A DNA stretch of 37,011 bases from the IMG/VR virus record IMGVR_UViG_3300025695_000044, positions 1-37,011 of that record; one strand, 5' to 3'. Below, piece by piece: positions 4,910 to 30,609 of this stretch. The DNA comes from a virus. The notes beneath the pieces were generated by a model. It did no database searches. It saw only the letters and a program-made list of their open reading frames with translations, and was not told the DNA's origin. Made by a program: the position numbers and the translations under genes. Each line of letters starts with the position of its first letter. The stretch's first letter is position 1.

Positions 4910-6058
4910 ATGTATACCCCATATACAATATCTGACGTACTAGATGCGTCAAATCAAAATAAGTTTAATGTCATTTCTACCTTTGCAGGTGGGGGTGGCT
5001 CGTCTACTGGATACCGTCTCGCTGGTGGTAAAATCCTCTGTATTAATGAGTTTGTAGAAGAGGCGCGTAACACCTACGCTGAGAATTATCCAGACACTCC
5101 AATCATCCCCGACGACATCAAAGAGTTGAGTGGAGAAGAGTTCCTAGAAATTTCGGGACTCAAGTCTGGAGAGTTGGATATCCTAGACGGGTCACCTCCA
5201 TGCTCGGCATTCTCTGTGTCGGGTAAATTAGCACAAACTAAAGGTAACACTCACTCGGATGGGTGGGGTCAAACCAAGAAGTACTCTGATGGCAAGATGG
5301 TTGAAAACATTGAAGATCTGTTCTTTGAGTTTCTTCGTGTCGCAGATGTTATTCGTCCAAAGGTTATTGTTGCAGAGAATGTCAAGGGTCTAACTATTGG
5401 TGAGGCCAAGCAGTATTTCAATAAGATCAACAACACCTTTACGAAGATTGGGTATGAGGTACACGCAGAAGTATTAGACTCTCGTTACTATGGGGTATCC
5501 CAAACTCGTTCTCGTGTAATTTTTATTGGGGTACGTCAAGACGTAGCAGATGTAGTTGGCATCAACTTCATGAATCTACCTAACTATTTTCCCGAAGCGG
5601 GTAAGACTGTTGTTCCTATAAAGGATGTTATCGATGGTCTAGAGTATGATCAAGAAGAGGTTGACTTGCTTACCGAGAAGTTTATGAAAACAAAGTACTG
5701 GTCTGTCACTGGTTCTGCAATGCCGACTTTCCCTGAGAAGGTATTGCATGGATATGATTATCACCCCAAGAAACACCACTTCAACCTGAAGCGAGCATCT
5801 CTTAATCACCCGTCACCTACTCTGACTGCTATGGGATCTGGTGCTACAACTGCGGGGGTATTCCACTGGTGCGAACCAAGAAAGTTGACATTGGGTGAAT
5901 TAAAACGTATAATGTCTTTACCAGATGATTATAAGTTGACTGGTAAATGGGATCAGAAGGCAGAGCGTATCGGTCGCATGGTTCCCCCATTATTGATGAA
6001 GTCTGTCGCTGAAGCAGTATATGAGAACATATTAAAGGTATATAATGAACGGGCATAA
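4910..6058 (+). CDS. DNA (cytosine-5) methyltransferase with Arg in motif X; candidate alternative-cofactor enzyme
   Basis: The 382-residue protein has all C5-cytosine methyltransferase motifs: motif I FAGGGGSS (25-32), catalytic GSPPCSAFS with Cys98, AENV (155-158), QTRSRVIFIGVR (198-209), a target-recognition region about 215-320, and motif IX/X LTLGELKRIMSLPDDY to ERIGRMVPP. In nearly all family members motif X reads GN-x-V; here the Asn is Arg356 (CGC at 5975-5977). That Asn is the position where an engineered enzyme gained use of carboxy-SAM. No restriction partner is adjacent. A CmoA-like gene overlaps its end by 14 bases, which suggests the enzyme transfers a modified group rather than plain methyl. 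Plain 5-methylcytosine remains possible. Confidence 0.93.
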   Translation: MYTPYTISDVLDASNQNKFNVISTFAGGGGSSTGYRLAGGKILCINEFVEEARNTYAENYPDTPIIPDDIKELSGEEFLEISGLKSGELDILDGSPPCSAFSVSGKLAQTKGNTHSDGWGQTKKYSDGKMVENIEDLFFEFLRVADVIRPKVIVAENVKGLTIGEAKQYFNKINNTFTKIGYEVHAEVLDSRYYGVSQTRSRVIFIGVRQDVADVVGINFMNLPNYFPEAGKTVVPIKDVIDGLEYDQEEVDLLTEKFMKTKYWSVTGSAMPTFPEKVLHGYDYHPKKHHFNLKRASLNHPSPTLTAMGSGATTAGVFHWCEPRKLTLGELKRIMSLPDDYKLTGKWDQKAERIGRMVPPLLMKSVAEAVYENILKVYNERA

Positions 6059-10799: not shown

Positions 10800-11744
10800 A
10801 TGAATTATGAATTAACTATATTTAAATCTCAGTTTGATAACAAGACCCACAGGAAGGTATCTCTTCCTACGTGGGATAAGTTTGTTGAACTGCTGTATGG
10901 TCTGTCTGAACAAAAAGGTGAGAAAGGTGGAAATAATTCTAGTCCTCTTATTACTCCTGCTATTTTTGAAACCAATAGCACGCGTTCTAATAAGTCTACT
11001 TTATATTGGGGTGGTTGGTGCGCTGTTGATGTGGATGATCATGTTTTTTCTCCTGATCTGGTATCTTTAAAAAATGAACTTATTGCCAGATTTTCTAAAT
11101 ATGATTTTGTTGTATACTCTACTGCCTCTTCTCGTACTGAACATCCTAAGTTTAGGATTGTCTTTCGTACTGATGAAGTTATCGAGTCCGACCGTATTAA
11201 AAAGTTTTGGTATGCTCTCAACACCCACCTTGGAGAAATCGGTGATCCCCAAACTAAGGATCTTGCACGAATGTATTATGTTCCTGCGAGTTATCCTAAT
11301 GCGTTTCATTTTATTTTCGATCATAGGGGCGGTTCTGCTCTTAATGTATCTGAACTTATTGCAAGTTATCCATATGTAGAAAAAACAGGTAACAGTTTCC
11401 TAGATAGACTACCACCAGAGATGCAGAAGCAAATAGTTGAGTATCGTAAGAACAGTCTAAATAACACCGACATCAATTGGGTATCATATCACGACTGTCC
11501 GTTCTGGCCTAGGAAACTGGGAGCGGAATATCAACAGATTACTGGTACGGGTTGGTACTCAAAGATGTATCAGATTATGGTAGCACTTGCAGGACGTGCA
11601 TACGAGAAGGGGTATCCCATCACTGCACAACAAATCGCAGACATGTGTAAGGAATTTGATCGTGAGACTGGTAATTGGTATGACAACCGTCCTCTTACGG
11701 TAGAAGCAGATCGCGCACTAGAGTACATATACAGGAACGGATAA
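10800..11744 (+). CDS. Putative primase-polymerase-like (AEP superfamily) replication protein
   Basis: This 314-residue protein has a pattern seen in phage and plasmid primase-polymerases: WCAVDVDDHVF with D77-x-D79, then YDFVVYSTASSRTEHPKFRIVFRTDEVI, then a D-x-x-T...ARMYYVPASYPNAFHFIF block. These fit the metal-binding Asp pair, the 'YSTAS...P+FRI' strand and the 'R.mY.P' segment of that superfamily. The C-terminal third is helical. It lies between gp43 and UvsX, and no DnaG-type gp61 primase is visible in the window. The first about 600 bases are T-rich, and the remainder matches the phage average, which suggests a mosaic gene. Function is an inference. Confidence 0.5.
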   Translation: MNYELTIFKSQFDNKTHRKVSLPTWDKFVELLYGLSEQKGEKGGNNSSPLITPAIFETNSTRSNKSTLYWGGWCAVDVDDHVFSPDLVSLKNELIARFSKYDFVVYSTASSRTEHPKFRIVFRTDEVIESDRIKKFWYALNTHLGEIGDPQTKDLARMYYVPASYPNAFHFIFDHRGGSALNVSELIASYPYVEKTGNSFLDRLPPEMQKQIVEYRKNSLNNTDINWVSYHDCPFWPRKLGAEYQQITGTGWYSKMYQIMVALAGRAYEKGYPITAQQIADMCKEFDRETGNWYDNRPLTVEADRALEYIYRNG

Positions 11745-12685
11745 TGGATAGAAAATTTTTAATAACAGGGGCGGCAGGGTTTATCGGATCACAGTTGATG
11801 AACCGTCTGAAGAAACAGGGACATTACGTAGTTGGGTACGACAACTTTAATGATCATTTGTATGAACCCAAACTAAAACAAGATCGAGTAGATCATTTTG
11901 ATATTGATGTTCGCTATGCTGACTTACGTAAAGAAGAGGCGGTTCAATTAGCACTAATGGTGCACAGACCTACGGATATTATCCATCTCGCTGCACACGC
12001 GGGTGTGCGCGACTCGTTCGGTAAAGAGAAGCAGTATCATGCAAATAATATCGATGCTACTCAGAACTTGATTGACATGTGTAAGAAACATGCGCCCGAA
12101 GCACGTATCATCTATGCATCGACCTCTTGTGTATTTGCGGGTAGTGAACTACCTTGGACAGAAGGTAAAGAGACTGGTAAGCAATTAAACCCTTATGGTT
12201 GGACTAAGTGGGCAAATGAGTGTCAGTTCCAGTCATCGGGTCTTCATACTATTGGTCTACGTTTCTTTACTGTATATGGCCCGTGGGGTAGACCTGATAT
12301 GGCACTCTTTGACTTTACGAAAAAGATACTTGCAGAAGAAGAGATTACCGTGTATAATTATGGGGATATGAAGCGTGATTTCACTTACGTAGAAGATATC
12401 CTTGACGGTATCGAGTGTGTAATTTGGAATGACGTAGACGCAGGAGAGATCTTCAATATCGGACGGGGTAAACCTGTGCCGTTGATGGAGTTCATATCAG
12501 AGATTGAGAAGAACACAGGTAAGGATGCAATCAAGAACCTTGTGCCTAAGCATCCTGCAGACACTCAAGAAACTTGGTCTAACACCAGTAAACTTGAAGC
12601 ACTTGGATATAAACCATCAACAGATGTAAGTGTTGGTATTAAGAATTTTTACGATTGGTATGTGGAGTATCATAATGGCAGATGA
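11744..12685 (+). CDS. NAD-dependent epimerase, UDP-glucuronate 4-epimerase-like
   Basis: An extended short-chain dehydrogenase of 313 residues. The Rossmann motif is FLITGAAGFIGSQL, the active site is STSCVFAG with PYGWTKWANE (catalytic Tyr-x-x-x-Lys), and the specificity region reads GLRFFTVYGPWGRPDMALF followed by RDFTYVEDILDGI, which is the signature of UDP-glucuronate/UDP-galacturonate 4-epimerases. With the next gene it would convert UDP-glucose to UDP-glucuronate to UDP-galacturonate in the host cytoplasm. The start overlaps the previous stop by one base (TAATG). Confidence 0.85.
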   Translation: MDRKFLITGAAGFIGSQLMNRLKKQGHYVVGYDNFNDHLYEPKLKQDRVDHFDIDVRYADLRKEEAVQLALMVHRPTDIIHLAAHAGVRDSFGKEKQYHANNIDATQNLIDMCKKHAPEARIIYASTSCVFAGSELPWTEGKETGKQLNPYGWTKWANECQFQSSGLHTIGLRFFTVYGPWGRPDMALFDFTKKILAEEEITVYNYGDMKRDFTYVEDILDGIECVIWNDVDAGEIFNIGRGKPVPLMEFISEIEKNTGKDAIKNLVPKHPADTQETWSNTSKLEALGYKPSTDVSVGIKNFYDWYVEYHNGR

Positions 12686-13613
12686 TTTTGATGATTACGT
12701 TCCTGAGAAACCTACAGGAGAAGCGACACCCGAACCTATTAGTATCAACAATCCTCTGGTCATGGGGATTGTTGGTCATGGATTTGTAGGCAAAGCAGTT
12801 GAGTATGCATTCCTACATGATATGGTCAAGCATTGTATTATAGATCCTATCTATGATACTACAGTTGACAATCTAATCACAGAGAAACCTCACGTGGTCT
12901 TTATCTGTGCGCCTACTCCACAGAACCCTGATACTGGGTTTGTAGATGCTTCTATCGTAGAAGATGCTGTACTGAAACTGATCTATCACACTAACGCACT
13001 TGTTGTTGTGAAATCAACAATCACACCTGACATTGTTGATCGCATCTACAACTCTATTGAACCCAAAGACTTTGATCGATTCGTATATAATCCCGAGTTC
13101 CTGACAGAAAAGTCTGCGTGTGAAGATTTCGTGAATGCTGAACACCATGTACTAGGTGGGACTAAATCCGCATGTCAAGACCTCTCTGAGATCTATGAAG
13201 TATTCTCTAATTGTAAATCTACAAACTTTTACTTTATGTCGGGTTGTGAAGCATCTTTTGTAAAGTATGCTACGAATGCATACCTAGCAACTAAGTTAAC
13301 GTTCTTCAATCAGTTGAAAGATCTGGTTACTTCGTTTGACTGTAGTTACAATATCGTATCTCGTGCAGTGGGTGCGGATGATCGAATTGGTGTCAAACAC
13401 ACTCGGGTACCTGGCCCTGACAAGAAGAAGGGGTTTGGTGGTGCGTGTCTGCCCAAAGATACTCGTGCACTACTAAAGTTCTCGGAGACTCGTGGCAAGG
13501 ATGCCCGTTTCGATTTGTTGGAAAATGTCTTGACAATTAACTCAAATTATCGTAAAATATACGAGTTAGATGAACGTGAAAAAGTGAATAACATTACATT
13601 CGGAGATGATTAA
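12675..13613 (+). CDS. UDP-glucose/GDP-mannose-type 6-dehydrogenase
   Basis: The 312-residue protein has MGIVGHGFVGKAVEYAF (NAD-binding), VFICAPTPQNPDTGFVD, VVVKSTITPDIV, YNPEFLTEKSACEDF, then KYATNAYLATKLTFFNQ and the catalytic GFGGACLPKDTRAL with its Cys. This matches UDP-glucose 6-dehydrogenases, though it is shorter than the usual 390-450 residues because the C-terminal UDP-binding domain is reduced. ATG 12675 has GGAG 7 bases upstream and overlaps the epimerase by 11 bases; TTG 12630 would lie far inside that gene. Product would be UDP-glucuronate feeding the epimerase. Confidence 0.82.
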   Translation: MADDFDDYVPEKPTGEATPEPISINNPLVMGIVGHGFVGKAVEYAFLHDMVKHCIIDPIYDTTVDNLITEKPHVVFICAPTPQNPDTGFVDASIVEDAVLKLIYHTNALVVVKSTITPDIVDRIYNSIEPKDFDRFVYNPEFLTEKSACEDFVNAEHHVLGGTKSACQDLSEIYEVFSNCKSTNFYFMSGCEASFVKYATNAYLATKLTFFNQLKDLVTSFDCSYNIVSRAVGADDRIGVKHTRVPGPDKKKGFGGACLPKDTRALLKFSETRGKDARFDLLENVLTINSNYRKIYELDEREKVNNITFGDD

Positions 13614-25386: not shown

Positions 25387-25415
25387 TTGACTTTATAACA
25401 AGAATTTGAGATAAT
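25387..25415 (+). promoter_or_regulatory. Cassette-type early promoter
   Basis: TTGACT (25387-25392), 17 bases, GATAAT (25410-25415). The leader 25416-25436 differs at only two positions from the leader at 30580-30600 and ends with the GAGAGAGAG ribosome site. Confidence 0.75.
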
Positions 25416-26918: not shown

Positions 26919-26947
26919 TTGCATTCTTGTTATGATTATGAGATAAT
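26919..26947 (+). promoter_or_regulatory. Cassette-type early promoter
   Basis: TTGCAT (26919-26924), 17 bases, GATAAT (26942-26947). The spacer GTTATGATTATGA is nearly the same as at 30551-30579. Predicted start about 26954, giving a 135-base leader full of hairpins. Confidence 0.72.
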
Positions 26948-26981
26948 GTCTTTGTTGGTTGGGGAGATCTGGTCTCCCGAC

Positions 26982-27005
26982 TAGGAACCTTCGGGTTCAC
27001 TGCTT
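26982..27005 (+). repeat. Hairpin repeat unit, copy 1
   Basis: TAGGAACC, a TTCG-capped stem, then GGTTCACTGCTT. A near-identical unit lies 29 bases downstream. Confidence 0.8.
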
Positions 27006-27033
27006 GTCTCTCAGAGACATCTGGAGTCGGAAA

Positions 27034-27058
27034 TAGGAACCCTCGGGGTTCACTGCTT
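27034..27058 (+). repeat. Hairpin repeat unit, copy 2
   Basis: Same unit as 26982-27005 with the stem lengthened by a compensating C:G pair (GAACCC/GGGTTC) and the same GGTTCACTGCTT end. The pairwise change argues that the stem itself is kept. Confidence 0.8.
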
Positions 27059-27088
27059 CTCCCTTCTATTTTCAATCGTGAGGTCACT

Positions 27089-27520
27089 ATGCAATATTTC
27101 ATCGAAGGTCAAATCAAAAACCGTGCCGTTGTTGATTGCTTCGTCCAGAAGTTGATCAAGGAACTCGGTATGAACCGACTTCGAAACCCTTACATTGATA
27201 TCAAGTTCGTTAACAAACTCGATGCGTTTGGTCTCTGTGATGGTGACCGTGACTTCGCTCGAATCGAGGTCGCCAAGAAATGTCCGGTAACTGGTCGTAA
27301 ACTCGGGTTCATCGAGATGATGCAGACTCTTGCTCACGAAATGGTTCATGCACGTCAATTCATTCGTGGTCAGTTGAACAATGAAAACGGGTGGGCCTGG
27401 AAGGGTCGCAATGCGAACGGGTTCGACTATGAAAATCAACCTTGGGAAAAAGAAGCGTATCGTCTTGAGAAAGAATTATTTATGGAGTGTTTCCCTCACT
27501 GCGCGGAGTTCAAAAACTAA
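27089..27520 (+). CDS. SprT-like metalloprotease domain protein
   Basis: A 143-residue minimal metallopeptidase: EMMQTLAHEMVHARQFIRGQ contains H83-E84-x-x-H87, and PWEKEAYRLEKEL (118-130) offers a third Glu ligand. This resembles SprT/Spartan domains, which in cells cut DNA-protein crosslinks, but the protein lacks a zinc ribbon after the core. ATG 27089 has GTGAGG 6 bases upstream. It is early-expressed behind the hairpin leader. A role in removing host proteins from DNA is a guess from the family. Confidence 0.72.
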   Translation: MQYFIEGQIKNRAVVDCFVQKLIKELGMNRLRNPYIDIKFVNKLDAFGLCDGDRDFARIEVAKKCPVTGRKLGFIEMMQTLAHEMVHARQFIRGQLNNENGWAWKGRNANGFDYENQPWEKEAYRLEKELFMECFPHCAEFKN

Positions 27521-30532: not shown

Positions 30533-30550
30533 TAAAACACAAAAAAAGTC

Positions 30551-30579
30551 TTGCGTTCTCGTTTTGATTATGAGATAAT
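30551..30579 (+). promoter_or_regulatory. Cassette-type early promoter
   Basis: TTGCGT (30551-30556), 17 bases, GATAAT (30574-30579), with the same leader (30580-30600) as the promoter at 25387. Confidence 0.73.
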
Positions 30580-30609
30580 TACCTTGTAATTGAGAGAGAG
30601 GTGTTTGTT

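Follow-up and report, generated by a model that had tools for sequence, protein, structure and literature searches.

Structured RNAs have been described in the putative 5′ UTRs of T4-like marine phages, namely the manA and wcaG leader RNAs (Rfam RF01745 and RF01761; PMC2864571). In phage HK022, the cis-acting RNAs putL and putR, of about 70 nt, lie directly behind early promoters and are indifferent to the gene that follows (PMC9378689), and tandem riboswitches (glycine, glnA) carry repeated aptamer-like modules in one leader. Likenesses to all of these were found in a leader of the DNA analyzed here (the window, 37,011 nt at full length), a 37-kb fragment of a T4-like phage that encodes a DNA polymerase (phrog_262) and UvsX. 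Judged by DNA polymerase, the closest named genome is that of Phage C48C1 (Kyanoviridae), with 69% identity. At 11744-13613, the window carries epimerase and UDP-glucose-dehydrogenase-like genes, a kind also annotated in Phage C48C1, and at 4910-6058 a cytosine-methyltransferase-like gene.

The leader spans 26954-27088 (135 nt), from a predicted transcription start at about 26954 to the ATG at 27089, and both its placement between promoter and ATG and its sequence agree with the initial annotation. Four separate hairpins had been proposed for it; we found three-way-junction modules instead, and the fold differs in detail. The unit comprises the stem P1 (GGGGAG/CTCCCC), a P2 hairpin, and a P3 hairpin (GAACC-TTCG-GGTTC), joined by the near-invariant unpaired strands WTCTGG, TAGG, and CACTGYTT, and the order in a single module is P1, WTCTGG, P2, TAGG, P3, CACTGYTT, and P1′. 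The features of the window are as follows.

26919-26947, plus strand: sigma70-type promoter, seen in the sequence, with hexamers TTGCAT (26919-26924) and GATAAT (26942-26947) and a 17-nt spacer; all members inspected have this promoter type in front
26961-26966, plus strand: P1 5′ strand GGGGAG, pairing with 27059-27064; single-module relatives show paired changes (A-U to G-C, G-C to A-U)
26967-26972, plus strand: ATCTGG, J1/2 of module 1, nearly invariant in alignments A1, A2, A3, and A4
26977-26982, plus strand: P2 5′ strand CCGACT, pairing with 27025-27030; changes on both sides in 4 of 6 pairs (e.g., G-C/A-U, C-G/U-A)
26985-26998, plus strand: P3 hairpin GAACC-TTCG-GGTTC of the inner junction; A-U to G-C changes, every cell paired
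26999-27005, plus strand: first J3/1 strand, ACTGCTT (sequence and alignments)
27006-27018, plus strand: P1b hairpin GTCTC-TCA-GAGAC, the capped P1 equivalent of the nested module; 3 of 4 pairs changed on both sides
27019-27024, plus strand: second ATCTGG, J1/2 of the nested module (alignments)
27025-27030, plus strand: P2 3′ strand AGTCGG, with covariation in doubles
27037-27051, plus strand: P3′ hairpin GAACCC-TCG-GGGTTC of the outer junction; weaker support, 1 of 4 pairs changed on both sides
27052-27058, plus strand: second ACTGCTT, J3/1 of the outer junction (sequence and alignments)
27059-27064, plus strand: P1 3′ strand CTCCCT, then a pyrimidine-rich stretch up to the ribosome-binding site
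27080-27083, plus strand: putative Shine-Dalgarno sequence GAGG, 5 nt 5′ of the ATG
27089-27520, plus strand: first gene, 143 aa, HExxH bearing, with a weak SprT-like match (phrog_16532)

Double elements run P1, ATCTGG, L1, TAGG, P3, ACTGCTT, P1b hairpin, ATCTGG, L2, TAGG, P3′, ACTGCTT, and P1′, and L1 base-pairs with L2 (CCGACT/AGTCGG in the window, TCTCAACT/AGTTGAGA in L002, and CCTGATT/AATCAGG in L389), forming an inter-module helix that co-varies. The window therefore holds two interlocked modules with the P2 helix common to both junctions: the outer junction consists of P1, P2, and P3′, the inner one of P2, P3, and P1b, and their joining strands are identical. The second module is a copy in circular permutation: it is nested within P2 and entered via P2 instead of P1. 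A triple form, in which a double is followed by a single module, is found in L174 and L212. In L218, L219, and L223, base pairs replace the loop next to P1b; since CTGG, TAGG, and CACTG are kept there despite this replacement, we regard them as the core.

The initial annotation is partly confirmed: it had the right place and a real conserved RNA but the wrong pairing scheme. Two GAACC..GGTTC hairpins with identical ACTGCTT tails are indeed present, and the GACT/AGTC pairing reported to enclose the fold exists as part of a 6-bp helix (CCGACT/AGTCGG) that joins the two repeat units. The repeat stems, said to differ by a compensating pair, differ by one added C-G pair (14 versus 15 nt) without any swap. 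A first hairpin, GGAGA/TCTCC, shows no paired change and takes bases of the outer stem P1 (GGGGAG/CTCCCT), which had been missed; four independent hairpins were rejected as a model, hairpin 1 being devoid of covariation.

Relatives of the element were collected from IMG/VR, where the exact pattern GGAACCNTCGGGNTTCACTGCTT matched 20 contigs; in all 20 the match is preceded by a TTGAC-type promoter and followed within a short distance by an ATG. Additional patterns, together with two protein-anchored fetches, raised the total to about 60 contigs, among which 14 doubles and 16 single modules are distinct, and the element always lies directly 3′ of a sigma70-type promoter and 5′ of a start codon. 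The window element is matched by the family models; it is a founding row in model R2, not in R1. Searches of whole records returned at most one site per record.

Alignments fitted to the model were used to assess covariation, and plain MAFFT alignments gave the same picture. In doubles, 95.8% of cells were paired and both-side changes occurred in 10 of 24 pairs, versus 4.0 ± 1.4 in shuffles (0 of 500 as high), and in singles 96.6% of cells were paired with both-side changes in 7 of 13 pairs, versus 3.9 ± 1.1 (1 of 500 as high); the shuffles overstate significance because the rows are related, and these sequences also served to draw the structure. Pairing fell to 33-68% in all slid registers. 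Every helix exhibits paired changes, with the outer P1 co-varying within singles only, not within doubles. These compensatory changes, which include real paired swaps in relatives, bear out the earlier suggestion of a conserved structure. The strong evidence is this comparative one. The folding energy of the 135-nt leader relative to shuffled sequence, proposed earlier as a check, is modest and only suggestive (z −1.9, 10 of 200 shuffles as good; reverse strand z −1.8), and the 104-nt core gives z −3.1 (3 of 500 shuffles as good). P1, P2, and P3 are obtained by free RNAfold for L001, L018, and L002, not for every member, and a different interior is preferred for the window itself. RNAalifold favors an alternative CTGG/CTAG pairing at the junction, where the bases hardly vary, so comparative data cannot discriminate between the two.

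In line with the initial statement that no RNA of this form was known, no covariance model of Rfam 15 (manA, wcaG, PhotoRC-II, and glnA included) matched at the gathering score, the best sub-threshold leader matches being at chance level (E > 5), and a known Rfam RNA was thus rejected. The self-cleaving ribozyme families in Rfam did not match the element either, and no tRNA was found in the leader. Named phages yielded no DNA match to the element beyond short chance matches, and Phage C48C1 gave no match to the single-module model. A host-derived RNA was rejected as well, since a single scan of GTDB genomes returned five matches, none in a phage-like promoter context, and model R1 gives a score to only one of them (14.5 bits, E 0.23). 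Nothing on the same motif was found in the published literature, which is weak evidence in a search that covered few subscription papers. The element is a new RNA family; its kind, a structured phage leader, is known, and its nested helix-sharing architecture is unusual.

Among members, P1 starts 11-14 nt after the −10 hexamer and about 5-8 nt from the predicted transcription start. A tightly closed structure so near the start could shield early mRNA from 5′-end-dependent decay, and UUCG-type hairpins and independence of the downstream gene fit such a stabilizer. Simple stability, however, leaves the near-invariant unpaired strands and the exact nested duplication unexplained, and we place this explanation last of the four considered, as an improbable one. 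On the other side of the element, the downstream gene begins 16-40 nt away (about 80-107 nt in three members). Two further promoters of the same type lie in the window, at 30542-30587 and 25387-25415, the former in a stretch 85% identical to the leader promoter region; both are followed by a short plain leader only (...TTGAGAGAGAG... ATG). In L085 (4014-4119) and L223 (6171-6276), a second GC-rich structure (TGGGG...CCCCAC, then a T run) stands between module and gene; it is loosely common to both genomes, has no Rfam match, and has the F37 small-gene family nearby in both.

While the element is constant and the spacing from P1 to the ATG mostly so, the first gene varies: at least seven unrelated types occur among the other members, and the first genes include the HExxH gene of the window, genes of 78, 182, 175, 68, 128, and 67 aa, and an HNH-like gene in L219. 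In L219, the 78-aa gene that usually comes first is separated from the leader by the HNH-like gene (138 aa; minus strand, below 7839), and the leader stays at the promoter. Because the first genes differ, the leader appears to be a portable, optional module tied to the promoter and not to the gene. The link to a metalloprotease-like gene made in the initial annotation is therefore incidental, and a regulator bound to one gene is ruled out.

In many loci, the operon runs from the leader through variable small genes to gp33 (phrog_254), gp32 (phrog_224), and a terminator. A gene-independent element heading such a multi-gene operon, just downstream of an early promoter and similar in size to HK022 putL (PMC9378689), might resemble put in antitermination or in preventing pausing: the leader, while still nascent, would bind host RNA polymerase and render it processive on the early operon. 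Put-type RNAs counter termination or pausing by contacting the beta′ zinc-binding domain. Most of the downstream operons, however, lack a strong internal intrinsic terminator to be overcome, the same operon occurs without the element in close relatives, and put RNAs consist of two stem-loops, not a three-way junction. We rank this explanation third and consider it rather improbable. In L250 and L256, the 182-aa first gene is immediately followed by strong intrinsic terminators, at 745-853 nt past the leader, so the leader may serve one gene only at these two loci.

The element is not required for the operon to exist. Among 44 gp32 loci with enough upstream sequence, it was present in 21, at 3.0-3.6 kb upstream of gp32, and absent from 23, several of which have a further promoter nearer gp33/gp32. 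Close relatives without the element are clean empty sites that retain promoter and gene. One of them, L342 (record G035, 151 kb), is 96% identical to L338 over 4.5 kb downstream and has a short plain leader in place of the element, with no copy elsewhere in the record. Since about half of the related gp32 loci, including this 151-kb relative, lack the leader, the genes manage without it. Single and double forms also occur before the same gene behind near-identical promoters (single L220 versus double L112; L004 and L003 versus L002); a gp32 tree meant to date such changes was poorly resolved. In L342, L352, L356, and L405 (near 4880), a 74-aa gene that lies upstream of gp33/gp32 has its ATG almost in contact with the TATAAT of a strong promoter, which suggests leaderless transcripts.

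Presence or absence between close relatives, one site per record, one to three modules, and indifference to the downstream gene would all fit dosage or titration by an RNA that is processed or acts in trans. The strong promoter would yield many stable modules that titrate a host or phage factor (as decoy or counter-defense) or act on other RNAs, with the gene as a passenger. Yet no intrinsic terminator closes the element, the ribosome-binding site is usually close behind P1 as for a leader, and no stand-alone copy was seen away from the promoter-gene pair. We rank this explanation second and regard it as unlikely; a free small RNA ending at a dedicated terminator was rejected, as no such terminator was found. 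From the sequence, with no strong terminator directly behind the element, transcripts should continue into the gene.

We favor a cis-acting aptamer-type leader that would control the early operon via a bound protein or ligand, to which we assign a probability of about 0.45, the highest of the four. This reading draws on the constant promoter-leader-ATG order, the paired changes, the alternation of single and double forms before one gene, the location upstream of gp32, the varying first gene behind a constant leader, the lack of a strong terminator behind the element, and the clean empty sites. Transcription from the promoter would read through the leader into the gene, and the near-invariant junction strands would be recognized by a factor, either a small molecule or a protein of phage or host origin. 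The bound, P1-closed form would then alter, in cis, the expression of the early gene or operon downstream, whichever this is, and additional units might increase dose or cooperativity in the manner of tandem riboswitches. As in riboswitches, a conserved aptamer-like structure with covariation resides in a 5′ leader; the first genes share no common pathway, unlike typical riboswitch regulons, and this counts against cis control, as does the lack of the leader in about half of the related gp32 loci. Neither classical riboswitch platform is established: computed pairing of P1′ with the Shine-Dalgarno sequence is possible in some members and inconsistent across them, which does not bear out a simple switch between P1 and the ribosome-binding site, and internal terminators are scarce. 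Binding of RegA, offered in the initial annotation, is unsupported by any finding. Tentatively, and at somewhat less than even odds, the element may represent a hitherto undescribed class of RNA receptor in marine T4-like phages, one that recognizes a factor of the host or the phage in early infection and is multiplied by a circularly permuted self-copy nested in its own P2 to give a two-site receptor with one shared helix.

Few structured leaders are known from marine T4-like phages, and the element adds to them a family outside Rfam 15 that has strong comparative support. Its clean empty sites and single/double swaps before the same gene provide matched pairs for testing the function of phage leader RNAs. 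It is unlike manA and wcaG of T4-like marine cyanophages in sequence and fold (no Rfam match), and those RNAs are tied to metabolic genes, whereas the element is not. Like the put sites, it lies just downstream of an early sigma70-type promoter, but the published two-stem-loop fold of putL was not found in it, and HK022 carries two sites per phage, in contrast to the one site per record of an element that is optional between close relatives. Finally, the copies in tandem riboswitches (glycine, glnA) stand side by side, whereas here a circularly permuted copy is nested in the other and one helix is common to both junctions, a duplication that constitutes a natural experiment in RNA module multiplication.
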